A DNA stretch of 64,000 nt from Magnolia sinica (taxonomy: Eukaryota > Streptophyta > Magnoliopsida > Magnoliales > Magnoliaceae). The stretch lies in contig NC_080573.1 of NCBI RefSeq assembly GCF_029962835.1, forward strand, positions 86,218,001-86,282,000, read 5' to 3'. The notes under the pieces are model-generated. The model did no database searches. It saw only the letters and a list, made by a program, of their open reading frames with translations, and was not told the origin of the DNA. Positions 9,653 to 57,862 of this stretch are shown piece after piece; the stretch's first letter is position 1, and every line of letters starts with the position of its first letter. Both the position numbers and the translations under genes were made by a program.

Positions 9653-11826
9653 TGATGAGTATCGAATATTGCATATCAGACCCAGTAATTTCCTGATTTT
9701 ACATACATGATAATGTTTAATGCCAGATTTTACTCGTGTTTTTATTACAGGATGAAATCAGGAGTGTGTATTGAAAGATGATGTTAAAAATATGGATTTA
9801 GCACTCCAAAATTACCAGAGCACGGGATAGATTCCAGAAAACCAATAGTGAAGATTTTACACGCCTGGGATTTGAGGAAAGCAAGCCAAAGGGGCCCGAA
9901 GGACGTCCAAAATGCAAGATCACATGGTTTCCACCATCCGATCAACTCGAAACTTCATACATGTGATGGGGGCCATAAATTAACCGTACATATTAAATTT
10001 CAGCCATTGAAGATCTCGGGAAGTGGTCCAACGGACAGATCAGCCTATTAATCTCCAATTGGGGCCCACCTGATATTTGGAACTGCCTCAACCTTGGTAT
10101 TGACGGCTAAATTACCATGATAAAGAGGATGGATGGTGTAGATTTCTCGTAAACATCACGGTGGGCCCGTGCAGCTTTTGCACCAAGGACCATTAGGGAG
10201 CTCCGTATGGGAGGAGGTGCCAATAGTCCGAATGAAATTCGCACGGATCCTGCCGTTCCAGCGTCCGCAAACACGACCTACGGTCGTCGGTTGTGGGTCC
10301 CACCTATTGTCCAAATGGACAATCCAAACCGTCCATCCGCTTCCTGGGGCAGCCATAATCCACGCCAAGGTGACGGAAATGGAAAGTACAATGAATAGTA
10401 GTTTTTCAACCGTTTAATGGTAAAACGGACGGTGAGTTCAAAACTCTGTGGGCCACCACAAAAATAACTCGAAATTGGGCATTCCCAACCGTTTTTTTAT
10501 TCTCCATCCAATGAACGGAGTGGATTTCTAGAATACCAAGTATGTGGACCCCACCATCACAACAGCAGCGGGTTTCGCATCCGCATAACGGACGGTCGCT
10601 GTCTGTTTTTGCGGCTATTTGTGGACCCCACCCGTTAACCGTACGGAAGATCTGATCCGTCCATCTTGTAGAGTGGTTCGAGAGCTTCAAAACCATGCTG
10701 ATATTCTTCTCTCATGCGTGCACACGTGCGTGATACAGAGGCCACAAACAGGCCGTCTTGTGACGTTCAAAACTGATTTTGTTGTGATTTCTTCTCTGGG
10801 CCGCGTCAATGGACATTCAAAACCACCCATTCTTGACTGAAATTTCGTCCTGAATCTAATGGACGGGGTGGATTTTTCAGAAAATACCTCTGTGGGGCCC
10901 ACCGATCACGGCTGCGAAAATTTATACTCCGAGTCCTTCTACGACTCTGCCACCGACCCCAGCCATCCAGCAGCTATAAAAGGGGAGTTTTGGACGTGGG
11001 AAAGGCATTCAGAACCAGGGGATTTCAGATCTGGAGCAAGGGAGAGAAGAAAGAGAAGAAAGAGAAGAAAGAAGAGAGAGAGAGATTGTTTGGTTTGACG
11101 TTTTTTTATGAATTTTATTTAATATTTTTTATGGATTTTATGGGTCACTAATCTCTCAGCTAGGGCTGAGATGAAGCCCCTAATTTGATTAGCTCTTGTA
11201 TTGGTTGATTTACTTTGAATTTCAATTAATTTGTTTCTTTCTTTAAGTGGGCTTTATGGGTTTAAATTCTATACTTCTCCATCTATGAACTTGACCAAAG
11301 TATATATATGGATGTTGTTTGGATGCTTATTATAGGTGCTTGTGTCTGATCAAGAACAGGTTTCCTATAGAGGAAGAAACAGGATGCTTTAATGAATTGT
11401 ACATCCCTTATGCCCGACCAAGGATATGGGATATGTCATTCGTGGCATTGCTTAAAGGAATTAGACAGTCTGTATGCCCGATTAAGGACACAGATTGTGC
11501 TTTCTCTATTTAAGTGGTATTAATCTAGATCAAGGTGAATCAACAGACAAAACAAGGGTTAGGATAATTAGAGGTGGATTCGAAAGTCCTAGTGCTCTCT
11601 TTCTGATTGAATTTTCTTCCCTGTTCTTAATTGTTTTGTTTCCCTAAAATTGTGCTTAGTAGTTCATTCCATTATCTGTTGGATTAGTTAAGGAGAGTCA
11701 TAGATTTGAATTGTGACGACCAGTCCTCGTGGGAACGATCTCGTAATACGTACCGTATCTACATCTGATTCATATACTTGCGAGTTTAAATATCATTTAA
11801 ATCGTGTTGGTTTAAACAAAACATCA
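9653..11826 (+). repeat. 5' LTR of the Athila-like element, 2174 bp
   Basis: Starts TGATGAGTATC, ends AACATCA. It matches the 3' LTR closely across most of its length but differs in two blocks (10169-10251 and 10616-10648). A GA-rich stretch (11040-11085) is about 12 bases longer than in the 3' LTR. Confidence 0.9.
10975..10982 (+). promoter_or_regulatory. TATA box of the Athila-like 5' LTR
   Basis: TATAAAAG, repeated at the equivalent place of the 3' LTR (17741-17748). Transcription would start roughly 30 bases downstream. Confidence 0.65.
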
Positions 11827-11832
11827 AGTTTT

Positions 11833-11850
11833 TGGCGCCGTTGCCGGGGA
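11833..11850 (+). promoter_or_regulatory. Primer binding site, Asp-tRNA type
   Basis: TGGCGCCGTTGCCGGGGA is an exact complement of the 3' end of plant tRNA-Asp (GTC) as I know it. This primer is typical of Athila/Tat elements. It lies six bases after the LTR end. Confidence 0.95.
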
Positions 11851-12201
11851 CTGTTTCGTTCCAATTTCAATTTGGGATTCTCTCTTATCATAATTCATAG
11901 CTTAGGATTTTTTCTAACTTAGAGTTCTTTTCTTGATTTTAGAAACTAACCTATTTCCTGTTTTGTAGGTCCTGACATAAATTTCTAAGTTAGATTCTAA
12001 CATAGATCTCCAAATTGGAAGTGAAGGAGGAGCTCCCTATTCTTCAGACATCAATCATCTCCTTTTCCGGGTTCTTTCTTCCCATTCTTATTTACATAGT
12101 TTTAACTTGTTTTAGAATCTCATAGTTCCTAGGTCTAGTTTTATTTCTCTTAGGTTGCTTCTTAGTTTAGTTTTCTTTCTTACATTGCAATAACATAGTT
12201 T
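11851..12201 (+). other. Untranslated leader of the Athila-like element
   Basis: T-rich leader between primer site and gag start; no ORF of note. Confidence 0.6.
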
Positions 12202-14289
12202 ATGCTAGGACGTAGATCTCTGAATATAGAACTAGCACCGTTTGATCCTGAGATTGAAAGAACAATTCGTGAAAGATTGAGAAATAATCCTGTTGAAATG
12301 GCGAATGAGACTGAAGTTAAAGCTCTCAAAGATTATTCAGCTCCTGTCCAATTTAATGCGCCTTCATGTATAGTGTTGCCAACCACTACGGCAGCACACT
12401 TTGAACTTAAACCTGGAGTCATACAATTGTTGCCATCCTTTTATGGATTGGACAAGGAGGACCCATATCATCATGTGAAAGAATTCTTAAACATTTGCTC
12501 CACCTTTAAGTTCCAAAACTTCTCAGACGATTCGATCCGCCTACGCCTGTTTCCTTTTTCTTTGAAGGATAAGGCAAAAGCATGGTTGAATTCTCTAGAA
12601 GTTGGATCTATCACTACATGGGACCAACTGTCTAAGAAGTTCTTAAACAAGTTCTTCCCCGTTCACAAAACCAATGCCCTCCGTAAAGAAATTACTAACT
12701 TCACACAAAAAGAGGGCGAGCACTTTAATGAATGTTGGGAAAGATGGAAGGACTTGCTTCTTAAATGTCCTCACCATGGTTTTGAGAAGTGGCAACAAGT
12801 TCAATACTTCTATGACGGTCTGACACCACAGAACCGTCGCATGGTTGATGCCACCAGTGGAGGGTCATTCATGACCAAAAGTGATGTCGAAGCGTGGAAC
12901 TTCTTTGAAACCTTGTGCGAAAATTCCCAGCAATGGGATTATTCAAATAGAGGTGACAGAAGTCCCCAACCACAAAAGAGAGGTGGTATATATGAGATAG
13001 GAGTCATGCCAGAGCTGAGCGCCAAGCTTGATAACCTGACAAAGAAAGTTGATGCTCTGGTATTAAATAATGGACCACCACAAACAGCTCAAGTCGAGGC
13101 ATATGCCACATGTTCTAGTCCTGCCCATCCTATGCAGTCTTGTCCATCTGGTGCAGCATTCCCAGAACTTCTCTCTGAACAAGTTCATGCTATGAACACT
13201 TTTCAAAAATCTGGGAATGATCCTTACTCGAACACATACAACCCAGGGTGGGTTAGACATCCAAATTTCTCTTGGGAAAAAGGACCACAACAAGGAGGAC
13301 CATCTAGAAATCCTCCCATGCAACCGCACCTCCAAGTTGGCAGTCAACAACCTCGACAGTTTCCACAATATCAATAACTGCCTACACAATCAAGGAAACC
13401 ATCTCTTGAGGATACACTCCATCTTTTCATGCAGAGTTCTCTCCAATTCCAAAAGGACACCCAACAAACCTTACTGGCCAACCAGCAAAGCTTACATGCA
13501 AATGCACAATCCATTGCCAAGCTGGAAGTACAAATGGGTCAACTAGCTGCCACATTGAGTGAGAGAGAGAAGGGCAAGTTCCCTAGCCAACCTGAGGCTA
13601 ATCCAAAGGGACAGTATGAGATTGGCTCTAATTCCAACCAAGGGCAATATTATGAACAGGCCAAATCGATCACTACCCTTAGGTCAGGCAAGCAGATTGA
13701 TAACAGAATAGAGATGCCTGGGGATGAATCAAATTCTAAAACAGAAGATCAAGATGAAGCAGAGAGCCATACCAATGCATCCAAAGTCCAAAAGCTCTCT
13801 GACTCTCCAAGAGCCACTAATGTGCCACCTTATGTGCCCAAAGCACCCTTTCCTCAACGTCTGGCACCAATAAAGAAAAGAAATAACTTTGATGAAATCT
13901 TGGACGTGTTTCAAAAAGTGCAAGTCAACATCCCGTTGCTTGACGCTATCAAGCAAGTCCCTGCTTACGCTAAGTTTCTTAAAGATTTATGCACTCAAAA
14001 GCGTAAGCAGAATGTTCATAAGAAAGTCTTCCTTGCAGAGCAGCTCAGCTCCATGATTCAACATAACACCCCTCCTAAATTTAGGGATCCAGGAGCTCCC
14101 ACCATTTCTTGCGGCATAGGAGATCATAAGATCGGGAAGGCATTACTAGATTTAGGGGCAAGTGTCAATTTGTTACCATATTCGGTTTATGAGCAGCTAG
14201 GACTTGGTGAGTTGAAACCGACTAAGGTAACATTACAACTAGCCGATAGATCTGTCAAGGTGCCCGGGGTGTTATTGAAGATGTGTTAA
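12202..14289 (+). pseudogene. Athila-like gag-protease, interrupted
   Basis: The gag starts at Met 12202. The capsid domain has SFYGLDKEDPYHHVKEF, AKAWLNSL, W-x-x-L-x-x-x-F and KFFP, all typical of Athila gag. A TAA at 13375-13377 replaces what is normally a Gln-type position. The frame then stays open to 14289, with a Gln-rich linker and the aspartic protease motif DLGASVNLLPYSVYEQLG at about 14149-14205, so the catalytic Asp and Gly remain. Near 14262 a one-base frameshift moves the rest of the protease into the frame starting at 14283. One stop and one shift in about 2.8 kb is mild decay beside the other elements in this window. Confidence 0.9.
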
Positions 14290-15014
14290 TCCAGGTTGAT
14301 AAATTTTATTTTCCAGTGGATTTCATAGTTATAGATACTCAGCCTGTCCAGAATCTTCATAGTCCAGTCATTTTGGGTCGTCCATTTTTGGCCACATCTA
14401 ATGCTATTATCAATTGCAGGAATGGAGTTATGAAATTGTCCTTTGGTAACATGAATATTAAACTCAATGTTTTTAATGCAGGACAACAACCCTCAGATTT
14501 GGATGACATATTTGAAGTGGACATGATCGAGAGCCTTGTGCAGGACTCCTTCCGTACATCTCTTGAAGATCCTCTTGAGACATGCTTAGCACAATCGGGC
14601 ATGGATTTTGACATTGATAGTCCCATCCATGAAGTCAATGCATTGCTCGACTCTACTCCTATATTGGAGACTGAAAGATGGAGAGCGAAAGTGGAACCTC
14701 TTCATCCCTCTGAGACTCTTCCTGACAGCACAGTTTGTAACTCTGAGAAGACAAAGGCGAGCAGGCTGCTTAATGTTCTTAGAGCATATAAGGCAGCAAT
14801 TGAACGGAAGATAGAAAAAATCCAGGGAGTATGCCCCACTGTATGGATGGATCATGCTGTGGTAATATCGCATAACATGCAAAGGAAGCGTGATCCTAAC
14901 ATAGAAGAAGTCGTTCGAGCAAAAGTCCTTAAATTATTTAACGACAGTGTCAGTTGCCTTATTTCAGATAGCACAGTTCATGGGAACTCACATCACTTGT
15001 CTGGGATCGGTTAA
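14283..15014 (+). pseudogene. Athila-like protease C-terminus and truncated RT start
   Basis: This continues the protein in another frame: VDKFYFPVDFIV and ILGRPFLAT are the distal protease motifs. A linker rich in Asp/Glu follows, then the first part of reverse transcriptase (RDPNIEEVVRAKVLKLF, the segment just before the RT fingers). Coding similarity stops near 14990 and the frame closes at 15014. The rest of RT, RNase H and integrase, normally about 3 kb, are not present before the 3' noncoding region, indicating an internal deletion. Confidence 0.85.
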
Positions 15015-16397
15015 TGAAAGTGTTGAGGTAATTTCTTTGGCGGACCCTGGTTATAAAGATTATTTCATTCATGGTCCGTTCTTGTCTGGCTGAAGACGTT
15101 AAACTTAGTGCTCATGGGAGGCAACCCAGCCTTTTGCTTTATTGTATTGCTTTTTATTTCATTCATTTTCATTTTTCTTAGTTAGTTACTTCAATGTTTG
15201 TGGGTAACATTACTGCAAACCCTCACGAGACTACAACTCGTCCACTAGGGGTAACCTAGGGTTTTAAAGGCTTGTTGCATGCGCTAAATGCAATCGAGAG
15301 CACCTGCGAAAGTGGTATAGGTAGGATCTTCTTTTATTTTTCTTATGTTGATTTCTCTCTTGTGCTAACTCGCTTTTACGTTGAAATTTTTCACAAATTT
15401 TGAGAAAGCTTCTTGATTCTCCATCCAGGTATTATCTTTTCATCACTCCTCTTTTATTCTCGTTGTCCCATGTGCATTGCTTGTTTATTTCTTTTACATT
15501 GAGGACAATGTAGATTTTAGGTTGGGGGTGGGAGATTAGGGTACCTAATCAGTATTTTCTTGGTCTTGAGCAAAATTTGTGAAAATTTTATAATTTTTTC
15601 TGAATTTCTATTGCATTTAAAGTGATTTTGAAGGATAGTTGTGATTTTAACATTATAAGATACATGATGTTGGTAACTAATGACTCTTGGATTCGGCCAT
15701 CTGCTTGATTTCACAGTCAATTTTGAATTGTTAATCCATGATTAGACGTTGTAAACATTGATTGAGTCATGATTTCACATATCACATCTCGCTTGCACAT
15801 TAAGTTTTGGTTCGATAACTGAATGATTAACTTGGTAAAAAGAAGAATTAAAAGGCTAAGTCACATAATCTTCACCATAGGTTTGCTCCCTATAGGTGTA
15901 GATTTGATTCTCCATAGTTAACTTATAAAAAAATGAGGCGACGAGTTTTCACCATAGGTTTGCTCCCTGTAGGTGAGGATTTGATTCCCTTCCTTGGCAT
16001 ACTGTTCATAAAGAAAATCAAAAAAAAAAAGAAGGCTGAAAGGTTGATCTAAAATGCTAGTGTTGGTTGTCAAGAATTCTGTTGTTAATTACCAATTTTA
16101 GCATGAAATTGATTATTGGAACTCTTAATGATTGTAAGCTGAGATTATACTATACACCTGTGGAACTCAATGTTTAGGAATGTTCTAATTAATGGATTAA
16201 TATGTTAAACTTGATTATGAAGTTTACTGTGAGCTTGATTTTAGGAGAAAATTCTACTTACCATTCATGAATCTTAAAATTTTCACATCTCAGCTATCTG
16301 TTCACAAGTCACTTGAGTTTACAGGAATCGTCTTTTATTTCTAAAATTATTTTTCGCATGTTTTGCTCGGGACTAGCAAAATACTGGTTGGGGGTTG
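15015..16397 (+). other. 3' noncoding region and polypurine-type tract of the Athila-like element
   Basis: Long noncoding stretch as in Athila elements. It contains the common GGGAGGCAACCCAGCC word (15115-15131) and a direct duplication of about 40 bases built on TTCACCATAGGTTTGCTCCC (15872 and 15949). GGTTGGGGGTTG (16386-16397) directly before the 3' LTR probably serves as the plus-strand primer tract. Confidence 0.7.
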
Positions 16398-18583
16398 TGA
16401 TGAGTATCGAATATTGCATATCAGACCCAGTAATTTCCTGATTTTACATACATGATAATGTTTAATGCCAGATTTTACTCGTGTTTTTATTACAGGATGA
16501 AATCAGGAGTGTGTATTGAAAGATGATGTTAAAAATATGGATTTAGCACTCCAAAATTACCAGAGCACGGGATAGATTCCAGAAAACCAATAGTGAAGAT
16601 TTTACACGCCTGGGATTTGAGGAAAGCAAGCCAAAGGGGCCCGAAGGACGTCCAGAATGCAAGATCACATGGTTTCCACCATCCGATCAACTCGAAACTT
16701 CATACATGTGATGGGGGCCATAAATTAACCGTACATATTAAATTTCAGCCATTGAAGATCTCGGGAAGTGGTCCAACGGACAGATCAGCCTATTAATCTC
16801 CAATTGGGGCCCACCTGATATTTGGAACTGCCTCAACCTTGGTATTGACGGCTAAATTACCATGATAAAGAGGATGGATGGTGTAGATTTCTCGTAAACA
16901 TCACGGTGGGCCCTGTGTATGAGGAGTGTGCACACTGCACGTTTTCACCGGCTGCGCACCGCACCGCCAGGACGGTCAGTGAGCCGCTGACCCGCGCTCT
17001 CTCTCCTGCGTCTTCAAAACAGGGCCCGCCGTTCCAGCGTCCGCAAACATGACCTGCGATCGTCGGTTGTGGGTCCCACCTATTGTCCAAATAGACAATC
17101 CAAACCGTCCATCCGCTTCCTGAGGCAACCATAATCCACGCCAAGGTGACGAAAATGGAAAGTACAATGAATAGTAGTTTTTCAACCGTTTAATGGTAAA
17201 ACGGACGATGAGTTCAAAACTCTGTGGGCCACCACAAAAATAACTCGAAATTGGGCATTCCCAACCGTTTTTTTTATTCTCCATCCAATGAACGGAGTGG
17301 ATTTCTAGAATACCAAGTATGTGGACCCCACCATCACAACAGCAGCGGGTTTTGCATCCACATAACGGACGGTCGCTGTCTGTTTTTGCGGCCCCGTACG
17401 TCACCCGTATGGCCGATCTGATCCGTCCATCTTGTAGAGTGGTTCGAGAGCTTCAAAACCATGCTGATATTCTTCTCTCATGCGTGCACACGTGCGTGAT
17501 ATAGAGGCCACAAACAGGCCATCTTGTGACGTTCAAAACTGATTTTGTTGTGATTTCTTCTCTGGGCCGCGTCAATGGACATTCAAAACCACCCATTCTT
17601 GACTGAAATTTCGTCCTGAATCTAATGGACGGGGTGGATTTTCCAGACAATACCTCTGTGGGGCCCACCAATCACGGCTGTGAAAATTTGTACTCCGAGT
17701 CCTTCTACGACTCTGCCACCGACCCCAGCCATCCAGCAGCTATAAAAGGGGAGTTTTGGACGTGGGAAAGGCATTCAGAACCAGGGGATTTCAGATCTGG
17801 AGCAAGGGAGAGAAGAAAGAGAAGAAAGAAGAGAGAGAGAGATTGTTTGGTTTGACGTTTTTTTATGAATTTTATTTAATATTTTTTATGGATTTTATGG
17901 GTCACTAATCTCTCAGCTAGGGCTGAGATGAAGCCCCTAATTTGATTAGCTCTTGTATTGGTTGATTTACTTTGAATTTCAATTAATTTGTTTCTTTCTT
18001 TAAGTGGGCTTTATGGGTTTAAATTCTATACTTCTCCATCTATAAACTTGACCAAAGTATATATATGGATGTTGTTTGGATGCTTATTATAGGTGCTTGT
18101 GTCTGATCAAGAACAGGTTTCCTATAGAGGAAGAAACAGGATGCTTTAATGAATTGTACATCCCTTATGCCCGACCAAGGATATGGGATATGTCATTCGT
18201 GGCATTGCTTAAAGGAATTAGACAGTCTGTATGCCCGATTAAGGACACAGATTGTGCTTTCTCTATTTAAGTGGTATCAATCTAAATCAAGGTGAATCAA
18301 CAAACAAAACAAGGGTTAGGATAATTAGAGGTGGATTCGAAAGTCCTAGTGCTCTCTTTCTGATTGAATTTTCTTCCCTGTTCTTAATTGTTTTGTTTCC
18401 CTAAAATTGTGCTTAGTAGTTCATTCCATTATCTGTTGGATTAGTTAAGGAGAGTCATAGATTTGAATTATGACGACCAGTCCTCGTGGGAACGATCTCG
18501 TAATACGTACCGTATCTGCATCTGATTCGTATACTTGCGAGTTTAAATATCATTTAAATCGTGTTGGTTTAAACAAAACATTA
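16398..18583 (+). repeat. 3' LTR of the Athila-like element, 2186 bp
   Basis: Starts TGATGAGTATC; ends ACATTA, one base changed from the CATCA end of the 5' LTR. It is followed by ATTTA (18584-18588), the right target duplication. A TATA box lies at 17741-17748. It carries a 114-base block (16914-17027) unrelated to the 83-base block at the same place in the 5' LTR. Confidence 0.9.
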
Positions 18584-18588
18584 ATTTA

Positions 18589-19582: not shown

Positions 19583-20879
19583 CCTGCACATTCCAAATGG
19601 GCCCACCAGATGAATAGCATGGGTGTACAACACTACATCAAGTGGGTTGCATGTCCAGCGGTCCGGACAGCGCTGATAAAACACTTACATCACATGGGTC
19701 CCACGTGGACAGCAGGGATGAAATACATACATTAGGTGGACCCGGCAGATGGACGGCACAGACATAAAATACATACATCATGGTACGACCACATAGCATT
19801 GTCCAGCGATGGACAGTGTGATGTACAACACATCATCAAGGCAAGGGCCCACCATAACATTTATTTTCCATCGAATCTATTCACAAGGTCACAAAGACCT
19901 GAATTAAGAGGGAAAACAAATTCCATACTGATTCAGAACTTCTATGACCCCCAAATAGGTTTCAATGGTATACGTTCGATCCTCCACTGGTTTTGAGGTG
20001 TTGTCCACCTGATAGACAAATCTGTCTTATTTGTCGTCTCAAGCCTTAAGATGAGCTCGTAAGGTGGATGGACGGTTTGGATATAACACACCTCATGATT
20101 AGACCCACATAACCTGCTGACATCATACAGCAGCTATATGGCTGGTGTGGGGTCCACGTCCAGATAGATGGATGGTTAGGATATAACACATACTTCATGA
20201 TCAGACCACCTAGTTTGTTAACGTCAACAGCAGCTATAAAACTGGAGTGGGTTCCACGTCCAGTTGAATGGACAGTTAGGATATAACACATACAATCATG
20301 GTAGTCCCACAGAACTTGCTGACGTCAATACAGCAAGTGGTCCCCACCGTCCACATGAACGGTGGGATGAAATACACAAATCATGGTGGTCCTGACAGAT
20401 GGACAGCGTGGATAACAAATACATCAGAGGTGGGTCCCACCATCCAGCAGTTGTTGGACGATGCAGGATAAGACCCATGCACCAAAGTAGGCCCCATGTA
20501 GCACCGTCTAGATGGACGGTGCTAATATACAATACATGCATTAAAGGTGGGTCCCACCCATCCAGCGAATAGATGGTGGGGATGAAACCCACTTATAAAG
20601 GTGGGTCCACATGTGTGGGACCCACACAACTTACTGACGTAAATATAGCAGCTATATAGCTGGTGTGAGGTACCCTAGCCAATCCACTTCCATTTCAGGT
20701 GGGTCCCACATGTGGCCCACCAGAGTTTTGAATCAAATTGATATTTGTGTTTCCCTTCATCAGGGTCTGCCCAAAACGGACGGCCAAGGTGGACCGGTCC
20801 GCTGGACATCGACAAGGTGGGTCGCACGGGTGGCCAACATGTTTATAGAATACACACATCACGTGGGGTCCACAACGCA

Positions 20880-24649: not shown

Positions 24650-27600
24650 GCAATGAATGTGCCAAACATACAATATCAGAGTAAGCGAAAATACTAGTAA
24701 GTCCATGAATGCTATCAACCATATCAAGGCTATGCGAAGTAAGGCTTACGTAGCCAAATGTCATATGTAAGATGCAAAGCATGCATGTCAGTCCTCACCA
24801 AGTCCACATGTCAATACAGTTTGTCTCTAGAATATCACTGGGGTCTAGTACACTCTACACTAGATTGCAGCAAAAACTAGACGCGCAACCATGCAAGTGG
24901 AAAAGACCTCACTACTCGCCTGGCCAGTAGTCTACCAATATCTACCCAGCTTGTCAATAGCAGACCCATTTACGAGCTGGTCAAACTCAGCCTAGTTTTG
25001 CCCCCTACCCTCGGGTGGATAAGGCCACACTACCTTCCAACCAACCATGACACAGTGGGAGACGTGACCTACTGGTATTCGGCACTCAGATGCTCATATA
25101 TCCACTCGGTCTCGACGTTGGAGCAACCTCCTAATACCATAAGGATTTAGTGGCTTTCACCCATGGACATCCAAAGTACCCATATGCATGAACCAAATAT
25201 TTTCGGTATCCAATTTGACCATCCATGATGTTTCTGTGGAAGCCACAGCCCTAATGTCGCTAGGGCACCAAGTGATCACGTCACCCAAAATGCGATATGC
25301 ATGAGTCATACTATCCAATCATGCATCAAACCTGCGCATACCATTCGATCGTGTGGGGTAACTTCGTCTCACGAGGAGTCTTATAAACATCTCAGCCCAA
25401 CGCTATGATCAATCACTCCTCATAACATGCATACAACTGATGCGTATAGGCATGTATCATGATGTTATACTAAGCATGTTCTTAGTGTGTCCTACTTAAC
25501 TAAGTACATAGCATGATTATCAGATATAACAGGCGATGATCGGCCTTAACCGGTACGTCACTTACAAGAGTAGGGGCTGAATGATACGCCCCACTAGACA
25601 TATAGAAGTCTATATGGAATGGTCCATGTTAGATTATCATAACGTACTCAAGGTACTAGCATATCATATATCCTAAGGTAGGGTCCCCTCCAAGGATGGT
25701 GGATCTAACCCATGAATTGAGATAAGCTTCAATAGTGGATATACTAAATTTGATACCATATATTCTTCCATCTACGGCAAGGGGTGATGATGTACTAAAC
25801 AATGGATAGCCTAGGCATCATACTTAGAACAAGAATAGGCCTCATGGTAAGTCAACAAGGTGAGTTGAGAGGGTGAAACTGTCACGCCCCAAACTCAGAA
25901 ACTGGGCTCACAGAATTCTCGATCACTGAATCCGGCACCGACAGCCTCCGTAGTGCCCTATTCTCAACTCCCGGCATGCATATGTCGGATTTCGATCTTG
26001 GGACCCTACAAGGAGGATTTTCAATATGATTTTTTTTTGTAATGGAGCATAACCAAGTTACAAAACAACATCACCACATATCCACTATATCAAAAACTTT
26101 GAGTACAATGCGGAAAGAGAAATACAAGATGATCAAAAAGCTTCAAGATAATCTGTCACGCGCTCTTACCTTAGCGTTGCTGCGATCTGACACCACCTAC
26201 ATGTAACAGTCATGCATAAGCTTACGAAAATCTTAGAGGGTGGCGTAAGTGTGTCCACAATGTGTGAGCCAAGCATACAATATCAGAGTAAGCGGAAATA
26301 TTGACAAGTCCATGGATGCCTATCAGTCATACCAAGGCTATGCGATGCAAGGCTTACATAGCCAAATGTCATATGTAAGATGCAAAACATGCATGCTAGT
26401 CCTCATTAAGTACATATATCAATACAGTTTCCCTTTGGGATATCACCGGGGTCTAGTACACTCCACACTGTCTGCCGCATCCCTAACCACACAGCCCAGC
26501 AAGTGGAAGAGACCACACTATTCGCCTGACTAATAGTCTTCCAATTCCTACCGGCTCATCAATAGCGGACCCTTTTGTAAGCTGGTCAGACTCAGCCTAG
26601 CTTACAACCCCCTCACTTGGGCAGATAAAGCCACACCCCCTTCCAACCGACCACGACATAGTGGGAGACACGACCTACTAGTATTCAGCACTCGTGCACT
26701 CATATTTCCACTCAGTCTAGACGTTGAAGTGTCTCCTGGTACCAAAAGATTCTGAGACTTTCACCCAAGGACATCTTATGTGCCCACAGTGCTAGAACCA
26801 AGTATTTTTGGTATTCAATCCGTCCATCCACGATGTACCTGTTTAGGCCACCGCCTTGATGTCACTAGGGCATACAGTGATTGTGTCACACAAATGAGAG
26901 ATGCATGAATCATATCATCCAGTCATGCATCAGGCCCGCGCATACTGCACGATCATGTGGGGCACTCCGTCTCTCAAAGAGTCCCATAAATGTCTCAACC
27001 TAATGGCATATGATATGATCAATCATCCTCTACAACAAGCATACAAATGATGCGTATGGACATGTATCATGATGTAATACTAAGCATGTTCTCAATGTGT
27101 CCTACTAGATTAAGTATGCTAGCATGGTTATCAGATATAAACAATAATTAGCCTAAATACATGGCGGGGTCCACAGAGGGATGGCGGATCTAGCCCAACC
27201 ACCAAGATAGGCTCTAAGCAATGGAAATACCAACCTGATACTATGTATTCTTTCGTCTATGGCAAGGGTAATTGGGAGGGTGAAACTAGGTATAACAAGT
27301 GGGTTTCTTCACTCTAAATCATGCAATGAACTGGGCCTTTCTATGGGCCCGATCTGTACATAAGGTGGACTCAAGGTTAGGATAATTACTACAAGGCATA
27401 GTGGAAAGCTCCATCATCAATGGGGGCCCGATGGCTTTGGGTCAGCCTGATGGGTATTACTAACTTAAGCGGGGACCCAACAGTTAGGGATAGCCCAACG
27501 GGGTAAAGGTGGAAGGGGGCTTACAGTGGGCCCTAGGGAGGTTTACAACGGTGGACTTTTAACCACTATTGTCTCGGTGCAGTCCATTTGGAAATCAGAA

Positions 27601-27659
27601 TAGTAACGGGGCCCTCGGCCCTCCAAATACCTAAGAAATGGATTGGTCACATGTACACA

Positions 27660-28230
27660 TCACTCATATATAGTGGGCCTACATAAGGCAATAGGGTCCA
27701 CGGCCTAAAATGGATAGACGGCGTATATATAACACTTACATCATGGCGGGCCTCATACAATTCCAATGGGCCCACATACATCACGTTGGGCCTCATATAA
27801 TCGCAATGGTCCCACATACATCATGTTGGGCCTCATACACGGGCTGCATATATATCACGATGGGCCTCAAACATGGGCCTCAAATACATCACTATGGGCC
27901 TCACCACCTTGGCCATAAACACATCATAATGGGCCTCATATACGAGTCTCAAATACATCATAATTAGCCTCATCACCTGGGCCTCAAATACATCTCATTA
28001 GGCCTCATCATATGGGCCTCATATACATCACATTAGGCCTCATATATGGGCCTCAAATACGTCACAATGGGGCACATCTATGGGCCTCAAATACAACACA
28101 ATGGGCCACATCTATGGGCCTCAATTACATCACAATGGGCCACATCCATGGGCCTTGCATGAGATGGGCAGCGTGGATGTAAAACAGATGAACAGCGTGG
28201 ATATAAAATACATACATCATGGTAGGCCGC
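27660..28230. repeat. GGGCCTCA-type degenerate tandem array in C2
   Basis: About fifteen to twenty units of 20-35 bases built on ATGGGCCTCAWATACATCAC. C1 has a shorter, differently arranged array of the same kind at 30610-30800. Confidence 0.75.
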
Positions 28231-29200
28231 ATGGGTGGGCGGTGTAGATAAAACACTTACATTATGGTGGGGCCACATGTTGCCAGCACGTACATCAGGT
28301 GGATCCCACCATCCAAAAACTCTAGATGGTGAAGATAAAACATATACATTAAAGGTGGGTCTGGACGGTGTGGATATAAAACATATACATCAACGGTGGG
28401 TCCCATCGTCCAGCCATCTAGATGGTGTGGATATACCCATATACATCAACGGTTGGACCCACAGAACTTGCTGACGTCAGTCCAGCAGCTATCTAGCTGG
28501 TGGGACCCACAGAGCTTGTTGATGTCAGTCTAGCAGTTGGATAGCTGATGTGAGATACACCAGCCAACCTACTTCTATGGCAGGTGGGTCCCACGTCCTT
28601 TCACTGGACGGTGTGGATATGAAACACATTCATCATGGGCTCCACCATCCACTACTGGACAGTGTGGATGCCACACGTGCCACGCAGGTCCCACCGTCCA
28701 GACAGCTAGACGGTGTACATACAAAACATACATCATGGTCAGGCCCACACTACACCCTCTAGAGATGGACAGTATGGATCAACGCATACATCATGTTTAG
28801 ACCCACAGAGCTTGCTGACGTTAATACAGTAGCTATATAGCTATTGTAAATGTACACCTACCAATCCACTACCAGGCAGGTGGGTCCCACGTGGGTGTGG
28901 CCACACGTTCTGGATCAAGCAGATATTTGTATTTTGCCTCTGTCCAGACCCCAGCATCTGGATGGTCTGGATCAACACGTACTTCAGGTAGGTCCACGTG
29001 GTGGCCCACCAATCAAGCTAATTTTTGTATTTCCCTCTCACCCAGGCCGGTCCAGGAAGGACTATGTGGATGATACATCATGGTGGGAGTCCCACCGTCC
29101 ACAATCTAGACAGCGTGGATATAACACTTACCTTACGGTGGATTTCCACCGTCCATGGCTGGACAATGTAGATTTAATCCATTCATCAAGGTGGACCGCA
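28230..29200. repeat. GGTGGGTCCCACCGTCCA-type repeat cluster in C2
   Basis: Irregular repeats of GGACGGTGTGGATATAAAAC, ACATACATCATGG and GTGGGTCCCACCGTCC, with GCTTGCTGACGTCAGTCCAG and AGCAGCTATNTAGCTG words between them. The same vocabulary fills 19590-20720 and 30840-31620. Confidence 0.75.
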
Positions 29201-29235: not shown

Positions 29236-30890
29236 GGCGTGCGATGGAGGGCTTCGCCACTATGAGCCCTCCCTTTTATGCATTACAAGGCATACATTAA
29301 GTGGGTCCCATTGCATGTGGGTCCAACAATCAAAATCAACGGTGGAGATCCCTTCTCCACTAAAAATGCAAGGTCTAAATGACCTTTCCATACTAGGAAA
29401 ATAACATCATGATGGGGTCCATGGAGAATATCCCCATCATGGAATGAACATATGAATCATGGTGCGCCATCGGCCACACCCAGGGTCCAAAGTGAGATCC
29501 ATACCACCAATTGATAGGCCCCACTTGGCCCATCATCAAAACACAAATCTAAGCCTATAAAACACCCACCGATTGCAAATCTTCTTGGTTCTTTGGCTTT
29601 CTTAGCTCATAAGCTCAACCTTTAATGGTGGAAGATGAGAATTGAAGGGTCAAATTGAGAGTTTTGAGGGTAGGAAGTGGGCCACACCTAGGTTCTCCAT
29701 AGATCTTCTCTCTTTAGATGGCCACTCTCTTTGGGTTGCTTGGGGAATGGGTAGAGAATGAGAGAGAGAGGGTAGTTGTAAGAGAGAAGTGATGGGTGAT
29801 GAGTGGCGTGATGGGTGTGAGTGACATGAGGGGTGACTTTGGGGAGGGTTGCTTGTCTTGGGGAGAAAGAAAGCATGGGTTGTGATGGGATGTGTACTTG
29901 ACTTGTGATTGATTGATTAATGTGATGGATTGTAGAGATTCTCCTAAGATTTATAATGTACGGCGTTTCCTCGAATAAAATGTGAGCCCACAACTCCTGG
30001 CCTAGGCATCGCATCGATGGGTAAGATGTGGCATTGGAACCGTGGCGACGACGCGACGCAATGGTACAAGTCTCAGGTCAAGTCGACTCAGATTTACAGG
30101 ATACAACTTAAGGTCACGCATAAATGCCGATTATAGGTTACGAGTTGCCGAAATTCGACAGGAAGGATCGTGAAAGTCTAAGGAACTGTACAGGCTAGGA
30201 TACGAGCCTTACAGAAACTATGTACAATCAAGTGGGCTTCCTTGCCCTCTCCTATCATACAATAAATTGAGCCTTCCTATGGGGCCCGACATGAATACAA
30301 GGTGGGCTTCAGGGTTAGATAATTCCTACAAGGCATGGTGGAATGCACCATCATCAATGGGGGCCCAACAGTTTGGGTTAGCCCAATGGGTGTTACTAAC
30401 ATCGGTGGGGACCCAACGGTGTGGGTTAGCCCACTAGGGTAAGGGTGGAAGCAGGCTTTAGCAACGGGCCCTAGGAGAGTTTACAATAATGGACATTTAA
30501 CCACCATTGTCCTAAGGTGCCGTCCATTTAGGATTGGAATCAGAATCATAACAGGGCCCTCGACCCTTATAATCTCTAAAAGGATGGATGGTTCGCGTGT
30601 GTATCACATACATCATGGTGGGCCTCACACATCACAATTGGGTCTTACACATACAATGGGCCTCACATATCATAATTGGGCCTTACACATATAATGGGCT
30701 TCACATATAGGCCTTACACATCTCAATGGGCCTCACACATGGGCCTCATCACATGGGCCTTACACATCACAATGGGTCTCACACAATGGGCCTACAAGAT
30801 GGGCCCCACCAGATGGGCAGCGTAGATATAAAATACCTACATCGGGTGGGCCAGCTGGGCGTCCATCCAATGGATGGCCTAAATAAAACG

Positions 30891-31070
30891 CATCATGGTG
30901 GGCCGCTACCCTAGACGACATGGATAAAATACATCATGGTGGGCTACTGCCCTGAATGGCGTGGATAAAATACATCATGGCGGGCCGCTGCCCTAGACAG
31001 CGTGGATAAAATACATCATGGTGGATCGTTGCCCTAGACGGCGTGGATAAAACACATCATGGTGGATCCC
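30891..31070. repeat. Regular 41-bp tandem repeat in C1
   Basis: CATCATGG recurs at 30891, 30932, 30973, 31014 and 31055, a constant 41-base spacing. Each unit also carries GGGCCGCTGCCCTAGACGG-like and CGTGGATAAAA words. No such regular block is seen in C2. Confidence 0.9.
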
Positions 31071-31639
31071 ACACATACAGCAGGTGGACCTCACACGTGG
31101 CAGATGGGCCCCACCGAGTGGACAGCGTAGATATAGAATACATACATCAGGTGGTTCCCATCGTCCCATGTGCTAGACGATGTGGATAATACACATATAT
31201 CAAGTGGGTCCCACCATCCACGCTGGACAGTGTGGATAATACACATAGATTAGGTGGGTCCCACCGTCCATGCTGGACGATGGAGATACAACATGTAGAA
31301 CAGGGTGGGGTCCACGTGGGTGGGTCACCCCACGGACCAAGCTGATATTTATATTTCCCTTCATCCAGGCCCATCCAAAACGAATAGCCAGGTGGGCCTT
31401 GCCCACTGGACAGACAGCGTGGATGCCATACATGCATCAGCTGGGGTCCACGTGAGTGGGCCACCCAAAATCAAGATGATATTTGGGTTTTCCCTTTGTC
31501 CAGGCTGGCCCGAAAATGGGCAGCAGGGTGGGCCGGCTAGATGTGGTAGTGAGGTGGGCCCTGGTTTTTAGACAGCCGGTTAGTCCGTTAGATGGACAGC
31601 ATAGATGAAATCATACATCATCAAGGTAGGCCATCAATA

Positions 31640-44653: not shown

Positions 44654-44665
44654 AAGGAGGGGAGA
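44654..44665 (+). promoter_or_regulatory. Polypurine tract
   Basis: AAGGAGGGGAGA directly before the 3' LTR, the usual second-strand primer. Confidence 0.85.
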
Positions 44666-44666
44666 T

Positions 44667-47600: not shown

Positions 47601-49010
47601 AATCATAATGTGAAGTAGGAAGTCCTATCTAAAAACTATCATACTAATTGTGAGGAACCACCTTTATAGCTTCCTATGTCCTTACAATTCCTAAGTTAGT
47701 TGGAATCCAACATGTGGTAAAAATTCAAATTATGGTGAGTTAAATCTATTGTTCGCTTGAACACCTTAATCTTGTTGTCCAAAACTCCATGACTACATTT
47801 ATTCTAATTATTATGACATCACATGGATAACTATTGCTTATGAGAAAACTTCTAGTAATGTGACATTAGTCTTGCAAATTCCATTTCACCTTTTTACTAC
47901 AAGGATTACGTAGCGAATATCCTGATTATTGGAAAGATAGTAGGGACTTTTAGTAAACCTATACTATCTAATCCTACTTGGCATTGACAATCTGTATTGG
48001 TAAGCAAGCACGTGGACTTAGTGAAATTATCAAGATTCAAATGAATTCATGCTTGGATGGTGGATATCTTACTTTGAGAATGCCTATGAGTTAAAGAGTT
48101 ATTTTACAAAGTCTATAGAATGTACTTGAGTATCATGGTGCATGACATCCACACATGACATATGAGCTTTTTCGAGTATGCAATGTAAGCCATACTCTGC
48201 ACAATTTACTGATGGTTCTATCACTCCAGTAAATTCCCAGAATCTGTGCATTTGGGTCACTTTGGGTGCTCTTAATTTACATGTGGATTTTCCAGGATTA
48301 GACACTCCTCAGGCGTACCCCATGTATTTTTTCAAGAGTCAAGATATCCTTGGGCGCTCTCACTTGCATGGTCTTTTCCATGTAGTCTACCTACCGCAAG
48401 CGATCCTTTATTTTGACAGCTGGATGTGCATCCCCAGATTTGTGACTTAAGCACGCATTCATACATCCATGTACTTGCATTTAAGTTCACATTATCTTCC
48501 ATATGATTGAATATGTTTGATATAAACTATTTTGGAATGATGTGGTATGCATGAATCCTTGAGAAAAGTTCCCACTGATTTTTCACTCACCCAATAGTGC
48601 GATTGCACCAAATAGATACAGGTATGATGGAGGAAGATGGCGACTATGATGGGACCCCTGGCGCAGCTGGTTAGAAGTATGAAGAGGAAGGACAGTATGC
48701 TGATACGATTGAGCCATTGGAGCTCAACTGATGATATATGATTTATCTACTTTCTTGTTCTTAGACATTATCTTCATGTTGCTTATTTTGAATTTGTAAT
48801 TAAAAATCCCCTGTTGTGGGATCTTGCTTTATCTCCTTATGTTCCAATCACATATGTTGAACTCTTCTTAATAGTTTATAGAATAGTTACATTTCGATGT
48901 TATGAAATATGTTAGACATTAGATGAATGGTTGTTACATAGCATGACAAAACCCTCAAGATTCTCGTACTCGAGCGGTCATCCTCGAGTTATGAGAATCA
49001 GGGTGTTACA
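44667..49010 (+). repeat. 3' LTR of the Tekay-like element, 4344 bp
   Basis: TGTAACGACCC to GGGTGTTACA, followed by CCTAC. Collinear with the 5' LTR throughout, with scattered point changes and small indels only. Confidence 0.92.
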
Positions 49011-49245
49011 CCTACAAATATGCAATCAAGGTGGGGATACCATCCACCACAAGATCAAGGATCTAGATGACTACTACATGTTGATTATTAAATAAACATC
49101 ATGGTGGGGTCTAGGGAGAATGGGCCCATCATGAATTACACATATGAATCATGGTGGGCCATTGGCCACACCATGGGTCCAAAATAGGATCCATACCATT
49201 AATCGGTATGCCCCACTTAGCCCATCATCAAAATCACAATCTAGT

Positions 49246-49258
49246 CCTATAAATACCC
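49246..49258 (+). promoter_or_regulatory. TATA-like motif on the plus strand of C1
   Basis: CTATAAATACCCA, with CCTATAAAACACCC at the same place in C2 (about 29555). It points opposite to the inferred direction of the LTR. Confidence 0.3.
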
Positions 49259-49598
49259 ACCTATAGCTTATCTTCTTGGCTCCTTAGACTCCTTAGCTCC
49301 TAAGCTTCCACTTTAATGGTGGATGATGAAGTTTGGATGGTTGGATGGTGAGATTTAGTGGTAGGGAGATGAGTCTAGCACTTAGATCATTTTCTCTCCT
49401 TAGGATTTCTTCTCTTAGTTGCTAGGGATTTGGGTAGAGAATTGAGATGGGATAGAGTGAAATAAGAGAAGAGTGGTGTTGTGTAAGAGGAATGATGAGT
49501 GGAAAGCATGGGTTGTGTAAGAGGAGTGACATGAGAGTTGACTTTTGGATGAGAGAGGTATGGGTTGTCATGCCTTGTTGGTAAGAGAGGGATGGGTT

Positions 49599-49736
49599 AT
49601 ACCTAGATCCATAGCTCAAGTGGTAAACTAGGTGAAAGATACATCAATTCAACACTGAGGTCTTGGTATCGATTCCCTAGAGGGGGTAGCTAATAGTGAA
49701 GTGTGAACTAACAGTGGTTGTACTAACAAGCTAACA

Positions 49737-49762
<26 letters not shown>
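49599..49762 (+). mobile_element. tRNA-derived SINE inserted in C1
   Basis: The insert is flanked by a 15-base direct repeat, AGAGAGGGATGGGTT, at 49584-49598 and 49763-49777. It holds a pol III A-box-like TAGCTCAAGTGG (49612-49623) and a B-box-like GGTATCGATTCC (49665-49676) at tRNA-like spacing, and ends in an AAAAGAGAGAGA-type purine tail. C2 lacks the insert at the matching place (about 29880). The B box differs from the GGTTCGANNCC consensus by one inserted base and one change, so this copy is probably inactive. Confidence 0.8.
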
Positions 49763-49768
<6 letters not shown>

Positions 49769-50143
49769 GGATGGGTTGCTTGTCTTGGTGGGAAGAGAGG
49801 CATGGGTGAGTGATGGGTTGTACTTGATTGATTGATGGGAAAGGCATAGGTAGAGATTCTCTAGAATCTCTCGAAATTCGCAACGCATGGCATTTCCTCG
49901 AGATATACGCGGGCCTACAACTCCTAGCCTAGGTATCGCATTGGTGTGCGCAAGACGCGACATTAGAACCATAGTAATGGTGCGGTCATAAGGGTATAAG
50001 TTTCGGATTGAGTCGACTCAAGTCTTCGAGATCCGACTTAAGGTCAACATGTTTACTATCTACAGGTCGCGGGTCACCAGAATTCATCGGAGAGGATCAC
50101 AAGAGTTGGTGGAACAGTACAGTACTAGGATACGGGCCTTACA

Positions 50144-56174: not shown

Positions 56175-56185
56175 TAGTATCAGAG
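56175..56185 (+). promoter_or_regulatory. Primer binding site-like sequence after C3
   Basis: TAGTATCAGAG, one base off TGGTATCAGAG, seven bases after the LTR end. Confidence 0.6.
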
Positions 56186-56322
56186 TATAACCATTAAAGG
56201 CCTATCAAGTCCACTGTAATGTTTATTTGACATCAAACTTGTAGATTAGGTCATAAAGACCTGGATTGAGGCAAAAAAACAAATACCAGCTTTATCAAAA
56301 ACTTTTATTTCTCACGAAGTTT
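56186..56322 (+). other. Short remnant after C3
   Basis: Includes GGTCATAAAGACCTGGATTGAGG, which also occurs at about 19890 (GGTCACAAAGACCTG). No coding sequence. Confidence 0.5.
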
Positions 56323-56325
56323 TTA

Positions 56326-56894
56326 GGCCTATTTGATTTTTATCATTTCACCTAGAAACGGTAGATACCCTCGAAATGGGTGATTATTACCGTTTCACCT
56401 GTTTGAATGCTCATGGGAATTTTATTTCTTGGAAACCGGTTCACAAGTAGTAGTGGCCATTTTAGGACCTCATCTTGATGTATATGATATATCTGTTCCG
56501 TCCATCCATTTTATCACAACATTTTGAGGTATGAGAAGAAAAATGAGTTAGATCAAACACTCAACTAGCCCATACCAAAGGAAACAATGGCCCCAGGAAG
56601 TTTTTAATGGTAAGTATTTAATTCACATTTTTCTATGGCGTGGTCTACTTGAGCTTTGGATATGCTTCATTTTTTGGCTTATATCATAAATTCATCTGAC
56701 ACAATGGATGAATAGTGTAGATATATGATATGCATCATGGTGGGACCCACAAATATTTTACAATATTTGCCATTTTTACACCAAAAAAGTAGGCCGAGAA
56801 ATCAATTATGGGGAAGAGTGCGGTAATTAAGGAGGGAAATATTTATCACCATTCATGGGGCATTTCCCTGGGAATTGGAAAATCAAACACACCC
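56326..56894. mobile_element. PIF/Harbinger-like MITE 1, 569 bp
   Basis: Terminal inverted repeats GGCCTATTTGATTTTT and GGAAAATCAAACACACCC, flanked by TTA at 56323-56325 and 56895-56897. The TTA duplication and small non-coding body fit Tourist-type MITEs. It is closely related to MITE 2 and shares the sequence GCATCATGGTGGGACCCACA (56729-56749). Confidence 0.75.
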
Positions 56895-56897
56895 TTA

Positions 56898-57445
56898 GGG
56901 CCTGTTTGTTTTTTAAAGAAACGGAAAATACCTGGGAAATAGTAATTATTATAATTTTACTGCGTTTGAAAACTCATGGGAACTTGTGCTTGTGAAATTG
57001 GTTCAAAAGATGTAATTTTAATTTTTGAACTGTAAGGTAATGCGAATGATATATCCATTCCGTCAGTCTGTTTTATTACAATATTTTGGAGCATGATACA
57101 AAAAATGAATCAGATCTAACACTCAAGTGGCCCACGCCAAAAGAAACAGTGGCAGTGAAAGTTTTTAATGGTAAGTATTTGATTCCCTTTTTTGTATGAC
57201 GTGATCCAATTGAGTATTGGATATGCCTCAATTTTTTACTGATGCTATGAATTCAACCGAAATAATAGATAAACGGTGTAGATAAGCAAAATGCATCACA
57301 GTGGGACCCACAGATATTTTATAATATTCTTGGTTTTCGTGTCAAAAAGTAAGTAGTCAAATCAGGTAAGCTGTAAATGCCTGGGGAAGTAATTATTACT
57401 TTTTTACACTGCATTTGCCATTTCACCGGAAAATCAAACAGGCCC
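56898..57445. mobile_element. PIF/Harbinger-like MITE 2, 548 bp
   Basis: Terminal inverted repeats GGGCCTGTTTGTTTTTT and GGAAAATCAAACAGGCCC with TTA at 56895-56897 and 57446-57448. It adjoins MITE 1 and shares one TTA with it. The bodies align end to end (AAGTTTTTAATGGTAAGTATTT, GGATATGCCTCA, CATCACAGTGGGACCCACAG). Confidence 0.8.
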
Positions 57446-57448
57446 TTA

Positions 57449-57862
57449 ATGGTGAGAGATCAATCAACAGTACGGGGCCACCTGAAATTTTGTTCTACCT
57501 CAGTTTTGGGTTTACACCGTGAACTTATCTGTAAAATGGATGGACGGCATAGATGAGACACATACATCGTGTTTGGTCCGCAGAGCACCGACAACCGGAC
57601 ATTGGCTAGTGGCTGGGGAGTAGCCAATCCGTTTCCCACTGCTGCTGTCTGGTTCAGTAGCTAATCCGCGTCCAGCTAACTGGGCCCGAAAAGACCGAAA
57701 CATCGCCAAAGCCCATTGACAGATGACACATATACCACGTCAGCGGCAATCTCGATGCATCTCTTTCTCCTTTTATACCTACCCTCTCGTTGCCCTCATC
57801 ATTTCCGTTCTTCCTACCTCCAACAGAAACGAAAAAAAAAAACTCTCTTTTCCCTCATCAAG
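57449..57862 (+). promoter_or_regulatory. Promoter and 5' UTR of a putative aldolase gene
   Basis: Contains an ACGT-type element CCACGTCAGC (57735-57744), a TATA-like TTTTATACC (57771-57779) and a CT-rich leader with a poly-A patch (57832-57842) just before the ATG. The upstream part (57470-57600) carries the GGATGGACGGCATAGATGAGACACATACATC module seen in the TEs, directly next to MITE 2. CG-containing words are more common here than in the TE flanks. Confidence 0.5.

Follow-up and report, generated by a model that had tools for sequence, protein, structure and literature searches.

The closest described systems to the DNA considered here, as they appear in the available portions of the papers cited, are the plant TIR-MULEs, which have terminal inverted repeats (TIRs) of 100-500 bp, include a tandem-TIR subgroup and are recognised with 8-11-bp target duplications as a criterion (PMC3903597); Mutator elements, moreover, make up 41.5% of plant MITEs (PMC12550479). 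An animal parallel is provided by Tm1, a Mutator/Foldback system of root-knot nematodes that folds back, has composite inverted repeats assembled from repeated motifs, makes 9-bp duplications and includes MITE-like members (PMC3169594). There are also precedents for the mixing of elements: rice MULEs with a Tourist-like MITE (Os0548) form composites that amplify together (PMC3903597), and the recombinant LTRs of ONSEN are mosaics of segments from different family members (PMC5668417). Finally, MITE families amplify candidate transcription-factor sites, including those of TCP15/23 in tomato (Morata 2018, via the review PMC12595863).

In the window, i.e., the whole 64,000-nucleotide stretch of Magnolia sinica DNA that was analysed, a collinear unit of ~110 bp (B) is present at all six places where a sequence-only reading had named a shared module, and the named words or close variants of them lie in order at every one (6/6). 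We hold, with a probability of roughly 0.85, that B is the arm of an abundant Mutator-type MITE and came into its other contexts via nesting and capture. Since B would then be the arm of a common MITE with pieces in other elements, its sharing would reflect nesting and capture between elements of known kinds, and not a new kind of mobile DNA. The six copies are as follows.

10062-10168, plus strand: B unit in the 5' LTR of a retrotransposon, E 6.6e-15, 807 bp upstream of the TATAAAAGGGG word
16807-16914, plus strand: B unit in the 3' LTR, E 6.1e-15, 828 bp upstream of the TATAAAAGGGG word
20002-20114, plus strand: B unit in family C copy Ca, E 2.3e-16
56640-56753, plus strand: B unit in Tourist/PIF-like MITE 1, E 2.6e-23
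57201-57314, plus strand: B unit in Tourist/PIF-like MITE 2, E 1.8e-17
57476-57585, plus strand: B unit beside a putative aldolase promoter, E 5.1e-17

The first alignment and profile had those same six places as their training set, and the models were therefore rebuilt from 65 copies at 60 loci, all outside the window. These copies all lie within the first 9.8 Mb of contig C1, where an exact word was used to choose them, so that the sample is not random. The rebuilt B model found the six places at E values of 1e-14 to 1e-23 and gave 34 matches at E<=0.01 across the whole window, and none in either the reversed window or one order-2 Markov sequence. That one unit is common to the LTR element, the PIF-like MITEs, family C and the promoter-side site is thus borne out by independent models. 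B is 53-63% identical between different contexts, 74% between the two Tourist MITE copies and 98% between the two LTR copies, and a 19-mer of the arm has 7641 exact occurrences in the genome versus 0 for its control. The earlier reading had overlooked an inverted, minus-strand B in each Tourist MITE (56462-56571 and 57038-57135), a related central unit, A (56205-56308, 19844-19954), and a transposon terminus at 57663-57673. A plasmid search with the MITE cluster gave no match, and the papers that contain any of the six module words are, by their titles and the starts of their abstracts, not about plant repeats.

The genome copies revealed what usually surrounds B. In 61 of the 65 sampled copies it belonged to a larger recognisable core, namely <B-A-B> at 50 sites, A-B> at 8 and <B-B> at 3, and the other 4 were alone, i.e., had no larger core within 450 bp. 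The commonest core, <B-A-B>, is a fold-back element of ~400-550 bp with the usual layout rc(B) - spacer - A - spacer - B and inverted termini GGACGCGGATT..AATCCGCGTCC. The consensus of the 65 copies is palindromic over 541 of 606 columns (in a 550-column alignment, columns 29-569 agree with their reverse complement at 83.6%), and one full element has a predicted RNA hairpin with z = -22.7. Both termini were seen in only 8 of the 50 <B-A-B> sites, with paired termini spaced 412-965 bp apart. Target duplications of 9-10 bp (at least 8/9 or 9/10 matching) flanked 7 of 15 terminus pairs versus 0 of 204 cross-element controls; perfect flank matches had a length of 9 bp in three pairs and 10 bp in one, with single pairs at 3 and at 4 bp and none at 5-8. 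A clear duplication was absent in the other 8 of the 15 pairs, two of which are second pairings of elements L036 and L047. An 18-mer of the terminus occurs 15703 times at <=2 mismatches, versus 32 for the reversed word. The main carrier of B in the sample is a Mutator-type fold-back MITE of high copy number, which leaves unsupported the view that the contexts lie beyond every described kind of element. A SINE-type shared domain, our first idea, was dropped once the 9-10-bp duplications and inverted termini appeared.

A Mutator-like transposase acting in trans presumably moves this MITE. MULE genes exist in the genome (a search with PF10551, the MULE transposase, scored 150 matches among 1104 candidates), but none was linked to it: no transposase gene was found between MITE termini, two MULE transposase loci had no match to the element models within the 3.3 kb examined, and by eye on contig C1 none of the MULE matches listed lay <=10 kb from an exact terminus listed. 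The element is like plant Mutator-type MITEs and TIR-MULEs in its long inverted arms, short body and 9-10-bp target duplications, and unlike them in that one unit makes up both arms and, probably, the centre as well, in the lack of a transposase-bearing partner among those searches, and in that other transposon orders in the genome carry B. With Tm1 it shares the fold-back form, arms of repeated motifs and duplications of the 9-bp type, whereas Tm1, in the available text, has motif units mostly of 14 bp that are consecutive in each arm, is called low copy and lives in an animal host (PMC3169594).

At the right of the window the MITE is found in pieces.

56183..56325, minus strand: central unit A and spacer, left of the nested Tourist pair, belonging to the same Mutator-type MITE as 57449..57673
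56326..56894, plus strand: Tourist/PIF-like composite MITE 1, with TTA at 56323-56325 and 56895-56897
56462-56571 (minus) and 56640-56753 (plus): inverted B arms of composite MITE 1
56898..57445, plus strand: Tourist/PIF-like composite MITE 2, with TTA at 56895-56897 and 57446-57448
57038-57135 (minus) and 57201-57314 (plus): B arms of composite MITE 2
57449..57673, plus strand: right part of the Mutator-type MITE beside the putative aldolase promoter, with spacer, B and right terminus AATCCGCGTCC (57663-57673)

Joining 56183..56325 to 57449 restores the spacer word GAAGTTTTTAATGG, and positions 324-531 of the full-element model align to 57446-57673. The cluster is one Mutator-type MITE that two Tourist/PIF-like MITEs have broken up by inserting at TTA, and what had been counted as separate contexts, the two MITEs and the promoter copy, is by its joints and TTA words a single nested complex.

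The composite itself, PIF-type ends around a <B-B> core, is a mobile family that moves as a unit. Among the matches listed to composite MITE 2, 39 of 42 rows (two of the 42 being the window's own copies) covered at least 537 of 553 bases, and matching 3-bp duplications were read by eye in 14 of 16 fetched copies (8 TTA, 4 TAA, 2 TTG); the 3-bp flanks of copies L110 and L114 differ, and L117 and L120 have a common right flank and may be one event. These TTA/TAA duplications are like those of other Tourist/PIF-like MITEs. The nesting is the reverse of that in the available account of rice Os0548, as PIF-type ends enclose a Mutator-type core, and the window has both nestings at one site. By the time of these insertions the Tourist-like MITEs would already have carried the <B-B> core, probably captured from the Mutator-type MITE, and they spread as composites under PIF-type ends.

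Pieces of the MITE, both A and B, are also seen in the arrays of family C.

19844..20126, plus strand: Mutator-type MITE half (A, spacer, B 20002-20114), close to the head of family C copy Ca
27521..29199, plus strand: family C copy Cb, in which right-half units follow MITE spacer and right-half B
30465..31515, plus strand: family C copy Cc, with MITE spacer plus B (30522-30631), followed by pieces of right-half B and of A

In copy Ca right-half units follow the MITE half to about 20690, and copy Cc is interrupted at 31800 by an LTR element and continues at 49011. The units, of about 45 bp, lie between 27706-29199 and 30956-31264, and together with the nearly full B at 30522-30631 (E 9e-8) they confirm that the other C arrays hold partial copies. 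The arrays are largely right-half units, in agreement with their description as expansions of the right half. Collinearity is plain in these copies; family C would have taken in MITE spacer and B, and its right-half units would then have grown into arrays.

The remaining context is a gag-bearing Ty3-type retrotransposon.

9653..11826, plus strand: 5' LTR of the Ty3-type element
16398..18583, plus strand: 3' LTR of the same element
10292..10338, minus strand: weak right-half B in the 5' LTR, E 0.0013 (3' LTR equivalent 17068-17115, E 0.0057)
10859..10905, plus strand: weak right-half B in the 5' LTR, E 0.002 (3' LTR equivalent 17625-17671, E 0.0018)
16915..17020, plus strand: diverged patch directly downstream of the 3' LTR B, where the two LTRs are 39.5% alike

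The element has an ATTTA target duplication (9648-9652 and 18584-18588), LTRs that are 94.4% identical and a gag matching Retrotrans_gag (E 1.7e-21); two more internal ORFs (13429-14289, 14283-15014) had no Pfam match, and the label Athila is that of the sequence-only reading. Around the patch (76 aligned, 30 gap columns) the LTRs are 99-100% alike upstream and 92-99.7% downstream, and the 3' edge of the LTR B is a breakpoint between LTR lineages, i.e., the LTR is a mosaic. In this it resembles ONSEN, from whose available description it differs in two ways: one breakpoint coincides with the edge of a unit common to DNA transposons, and a ~100-bp patch sets apart the two LTRs of a single insertion. 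An LTR flank word occurs 842 times versus 30 for its control. B was in 41 of 41 LTR segments; these represent 39 distinct places, of which two are in the window, and were retrieved with a query that itself contained B, so that LTR copies lacking it could be missed. In the LTR as in the Tourist context, homology ends at the outer B edges and neither Mutator termini nor 9-10-bp duplications were seen, and a simple nested insertion is thus not visible in either. An ancestor of the family probably acquired one B in its upstream control region, to be copied along with the LTR ever since, and adjoining segments were probably swapped between lineages at the 3' edge of B by template switching or conversion. 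The suggestion that the unit spread by repeated capture or conversion-type exchange fares well here, capture and exchange between lineages both being likely routes. Each process has its precedent, and the combination is an unusual variant without a described counterpart in the literature searched.

Could B predate all of its carriers, as a ~110-bp regulatory unit with GTGG(G)NCC(C)AC edges, taken up independently by several transposon orders, the MITE being merely its best carrier? We consider this unlikely, if by no means negligible. The edge words are of TCP type and thus candidate factor sites, and the window has 27 of them versus a mean of 1.3 (maximum 4) in 20 order-2 Markov controls. The inner words are more conserved than their own arm (GTGGACCAC 0.81 vs 0.72, GTGGTCCAC 0.83 vs 0.77), the LTR and Tourist homologies stop, as noted, at the B edges, and the MITE seems to be made of three related units. 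The central one, A, probably represents a diverged form of B, judging by 63% identity over a 119-column self-match of the consensus and by the B model, which matches 36 of 127 A units when E<=0.1 is allowed and 6 of them at E<=0.001, with 0 in reversed controls; their mean identity in a joint alignment is only 47%, and the kinship is therefore weaker than B's own unity. Against such an ancient unit, however, 58 of the 65 copies are in an A-containing MITE core (the <B-A-B> sites included), the Tourist core keeps MITE spacer words from outside B, the outer words GTGGGGCCCAC and GTGGGCCCCAC, at 0.74, are hardly above arm conservation, and an intact class-I-type word is in just 26/63 and 26/64 arms (a looser word in 44 and 49). 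A bolder form of the idea, which we think rather improbable, would have an old ~110-bp control cassette with TCP-type edges serve as arm or upstream control in DNA transposons of two superfamilies and in a Ty3 retrotransposon, each having adopted it, its edge being an exchange point that reshuffles LTR control regions. The MITE family is, in any case, like those of Morata 2018, as the review reports them, in spreading candidate factor sites.

That the LTR retrotransposon was the source, its unit giving rise to the MITE arms, is very doubtful. LTR copies are numerous (40 were scored among 5894 first-look candidates) and B was in every segment examined, but mean pairwise identity is 0.70 for MITE B and 0.98 within each LTR lineage (0.78 between the two), making MITE B far more diverse, and the MITE has B twice, plus a relative, plus termini. 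A point against the preferred MITE reading is that in the unit tree the LTR clade is on a long branch of unsettled position, deeper supports being mostly low. The notion that the unit moves by itself, as a free element of about 110 bp, is hardly credible: it has inverted edge words and the 4 solitary copies in its favour, but free movement is unsupported because 61 of 65 copies are in a larger core, and target duplications were found at the outer termini. That short words are alike by chance or through low complexity, for which the merely 53-63% identity between contexts might speak, we practically dismiss, given the independent models and their empty controls.

To return to the MITE arm as the preferred reading, a single unit has in one genome been rehoused under Mutator-type transposition, PIF-type transposition and reverse transcription, and part of this history can be followed at a single locus. 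Were the unit to drive transcription, unrelated transposons and the genes near their insertions would respond to common factors. Repeat annotation, too, has to reckon with it, as a unit that joins families which are otherwise distinct can lead to wrong classification.

The 'aldolase-like promoter' beside the cluster is unproven as such. None of ten open frames in 57680-62068 (nine plus, one minus) had a Pfam match at E<=0.01, and six-frame translation of 57001-64000 contained none of the aldolase words sought; what stands is that the DNA at 57863-57898, read by eye, encodes MSAFCGKYHG and one more residue before a stop, a start that presumably resembles that of plant aldolase. Further along, at 62787..63055 (strand unassigned), is another degenerate remnant of the MITE, matching positions 61-313 of the full-element model.

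The sequence-only reading had claimed a collinear module at six places (two Athila-like LTRs, a fragment of the tandem-array family C, two PIF-like MITEs and the side of an aldolase-like promoter), and all six segments did align in one order, as a unit of ~110 bp, B. Because an alignment of those six segments is self-trained, models were rebuilt from genome copies: 65 exact occurrences of ATGGATGGACGGTGTGGAT, spread over 60 loci in the initial 9.8 Mb of contig C1, a non-random sample with a few near-duplicate loci (e.g., L029/L030). In the window, the rebuilt models recovered every listed place, with E values of 6.6e-15 to 2.6e-23, and produced no match in the reversed window or in one order-2 Markov sequence. 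Across the 1.84-Gb assembly (127 contigs), ATGGATGGACGGTGTGGAT has 7641 exact occurrences and its reversal none.

In genome copies B lies within a delimited block, several hundred bases long, that shows the signature of a Mutator-type MITE. The consensus is palindromic over 541 columns, GGACGCGGATT to AATCCGCGTCC, and is laid out as rc(B), spacer, a central unit A, spacer, B (<B-A-B>), an arrangement found at 50 of the 65 sampled sites; eight sites had A-B> without the left arm, three had <B-B>, and four had B alone within 450 bp. At the chosen stringency, both termini were present at just 8 of the 50 <B-A-B> sites, one at 24 and none at 18, so a good many copies are degraded or come from subfamilies whose ends differ. 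Scoring covered fifteen terminus pairs with a spacing of 412-965 bp, among them two alternative pairings from L036 and two from L047. A target duplication matching at least 8/9 or 9/10 accompanied 7 of the fifteen, compared with 0 of 204 pairs whose members came from different loci, with perfect matches of 9 bp (three), 10 bp, 3 bp and 4 bp (one each). The terminus word occurs 15703 times in the genome at up to two mismatches, versus 32 for its reversal. The hairpin fold of a complete copy has an energy of -289 kcal/mol, with z -22.7 relative to 100 shuffles. In construction the element is like a TIR-MULE-derived MITE, and it resembles the nematode Tm1 elements, which likewise have inverted repeats composed of repeated motifs (PMC3169594).

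A is, by sequence, probably a weaker relative of B. The two match at 63% identity over 119 columns of the consensus, and at E<=0.1 the B model matched 36 of 127 A units, a number that fell to 6 at E<=0.001 (reversed controls, 0), but the mean A-B identity in a joint alignment, just 47%, counts against kinship. A units may also be capable of array expansion, since a tandem array of A-unit pieces at ~57-bp spacing adjoins an LTR copy at L093:832-1227. Exact terminus words also occur as inverted pairs ~1.8 kb apart (G000:C1:116980482-116982277 and C1:138646449-138648186), where the usual spacing is 400-550 bp, and these may hold extra internal sequence.

The promoter-side copy and the two PIF-like (Tourist-like) MITEs proved to be a single structure, in which two consecutive Tourist-like MITEs split an outer Mutator-type MITE, itself lacking a left arm, at GAAGTTTTTA/ATGG:

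56183-56325 then 57449-57673, outer Mutator-type MITE, right terminus at 57663-57673
TTA-[56326-56894]-TTA-[56898-57445]-TTA, nested Tourist-like pair

Both Tourist-like MITEs contain an inverted B pair and MITE spacer words; neither A nor Mutator termini were detected in either. The second (56898-57445) is a member of a family that is mobile as a composite: a search in which 40 of 2756 first-look candidates were scored listed 42 matches (two being the window's own), 39 of which span at least 537 of the 553 query bases. By eye, the 3-bp duplications match in 14 of 16 fetched copies (8 TTA, 4 TAA, 2 TTG) and do not in L110 and L114; L117 and L120, with a common right flank, may be a single event. 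Loci L009 and L024, picked up through ATGGATGGACGGTGTGGAT alone, look like further subfamilies of this composite. In rice, MULEs with a Tourist-like MITE are reported to have been amplified (PMC3903597); the reverse nesting is also present here.

Several observations were made beside this cluster. A short frame read by eye from the DNA, MSAFCGKYHG, lies at 57863-57898. It resembles the first exon of plant cytosolic aldolase, but none of the aldolase words looked for occurred in a six-frame translation of 57001-64000. The other features, probably a local duplication, are as follows:

58387-58538 and 60260-60416, + strand, two copies of the H/ACA snoRNA snoR2/U65 (Rfam), ~1.87 kb apart
58028-58191 and 59906-60069, repeated stretch, 87% identical, adjoining the snoRNA copies

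Family C has the MITE spacer and B near the head of all three copies (19844-20126, 27521-27767 and 30465-30631), and in the first copy A as well. Downstream come right-half B units, to which the first and third copies add A pieces. The earlier suggestion that the right half of family C expanded locally fits these (+) arrays, the direction being one that we infer. The second and third copies are directly adjacent, ~59-72% identical by stretch, and family C may represent an ancient unit of tandem or LTR-like type:

27282-30213, copy Cb
30214-31799 plus 49011-50143, copy Cc
31800-49010, LTR element cutting Cc, 17.2 kb, LTRs of 4.35 kb (94.3% identical), 5-bp duplication CCTAC, with an RVT match and a chromodomain-like match under Pfam's cut-off

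A TATA-like word at 29555 recurs at 20234, inside an array.

The LTR element at 9653-18583 has a 5-bp duplication (ATTTA) and a gag domain, and upstream of the word TATAAAAGGGG each of its LTRs contains one full B as well as two right-half units that match weakly (E 0.0004-0.006). Of five LTR sequences examined, three had the forward half-unit (window, L099, L103) and three the inverted one (window, L070, L093); reversed versions of the five had neither. In a search that scored 40 of 5894 candidates with a query that itself contained B, B was present in 41 LTR segments at 39 distinct places (two being the window's own) and was near-constant per lineage. By their identity profiles, these LTRs have mosaic control regions in which a breakpoint falls at the 3' edge of B. 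Against the window 3' LTR, lineage R2 (four copies profiled) shows 94-100% identity upstream of B, 76-80% within it, 48-57% from there to 17300, and then ~75% and 90%; L093 is 79-95% upstream, 99% in B, 94% just after it, and 81, 51, 75 and 84% further downstream. The two LTRs of the 9653-18583 element, a single insertion, are 99-100% identical as far as the end of B, 39.5% over a ~100-bp patch past it (16915-17020 versus the stretch after 10168; 76 aligned and 30 gap columns), and 92-99.7% beyond. Recombinant LTRs are documented for ONSEN (PMC5668417); conversion after insertion would also fit, and the route of B's first entry into an LTR is something we infer.

In a tree of units (45 of 191 from MITEs, 14 of 32 Tourist, 9 LTR, 10 window, 8 A), the LTR B units cluster as a single clade with support 0.999, on a long branch that the tree does not place firmly, and Tourist B units group among MITE B units with modest support. 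The sequence-only reading knew of no described family that explains all these contexts; no observation here calls for a new kind of mobile element. The unusual feature is that three systems in a single genome now replicate this one unit, and that it also marks an exchange point within LTRs.

A putative regulatory role of B is a lead only. It is edged by words of the form GTGG(G)NCC(C)AC that resemble TCP-factor sites. The window has 27 such words where 20 Markov controls average 1.3, an excess that is not independent evidence of selection because the window's repeats themselves carry them. Conservation of the inner word somewhat exceeds that of its arm (0.81 versus 0.72; 0.83 versus 0.77), that of the outer word hardly does (0.74), and an intact class-I-type word occurs in just 26/63 and 26/64 arms.

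One further match lies inside the 9653-18583 element, within the gag frame of the retrotransposon and on the opposite strand:

12676-12782, - strand, match to the plant snoR71 model of Rfam, scoring 53.3 bits (gathering threshold 40)
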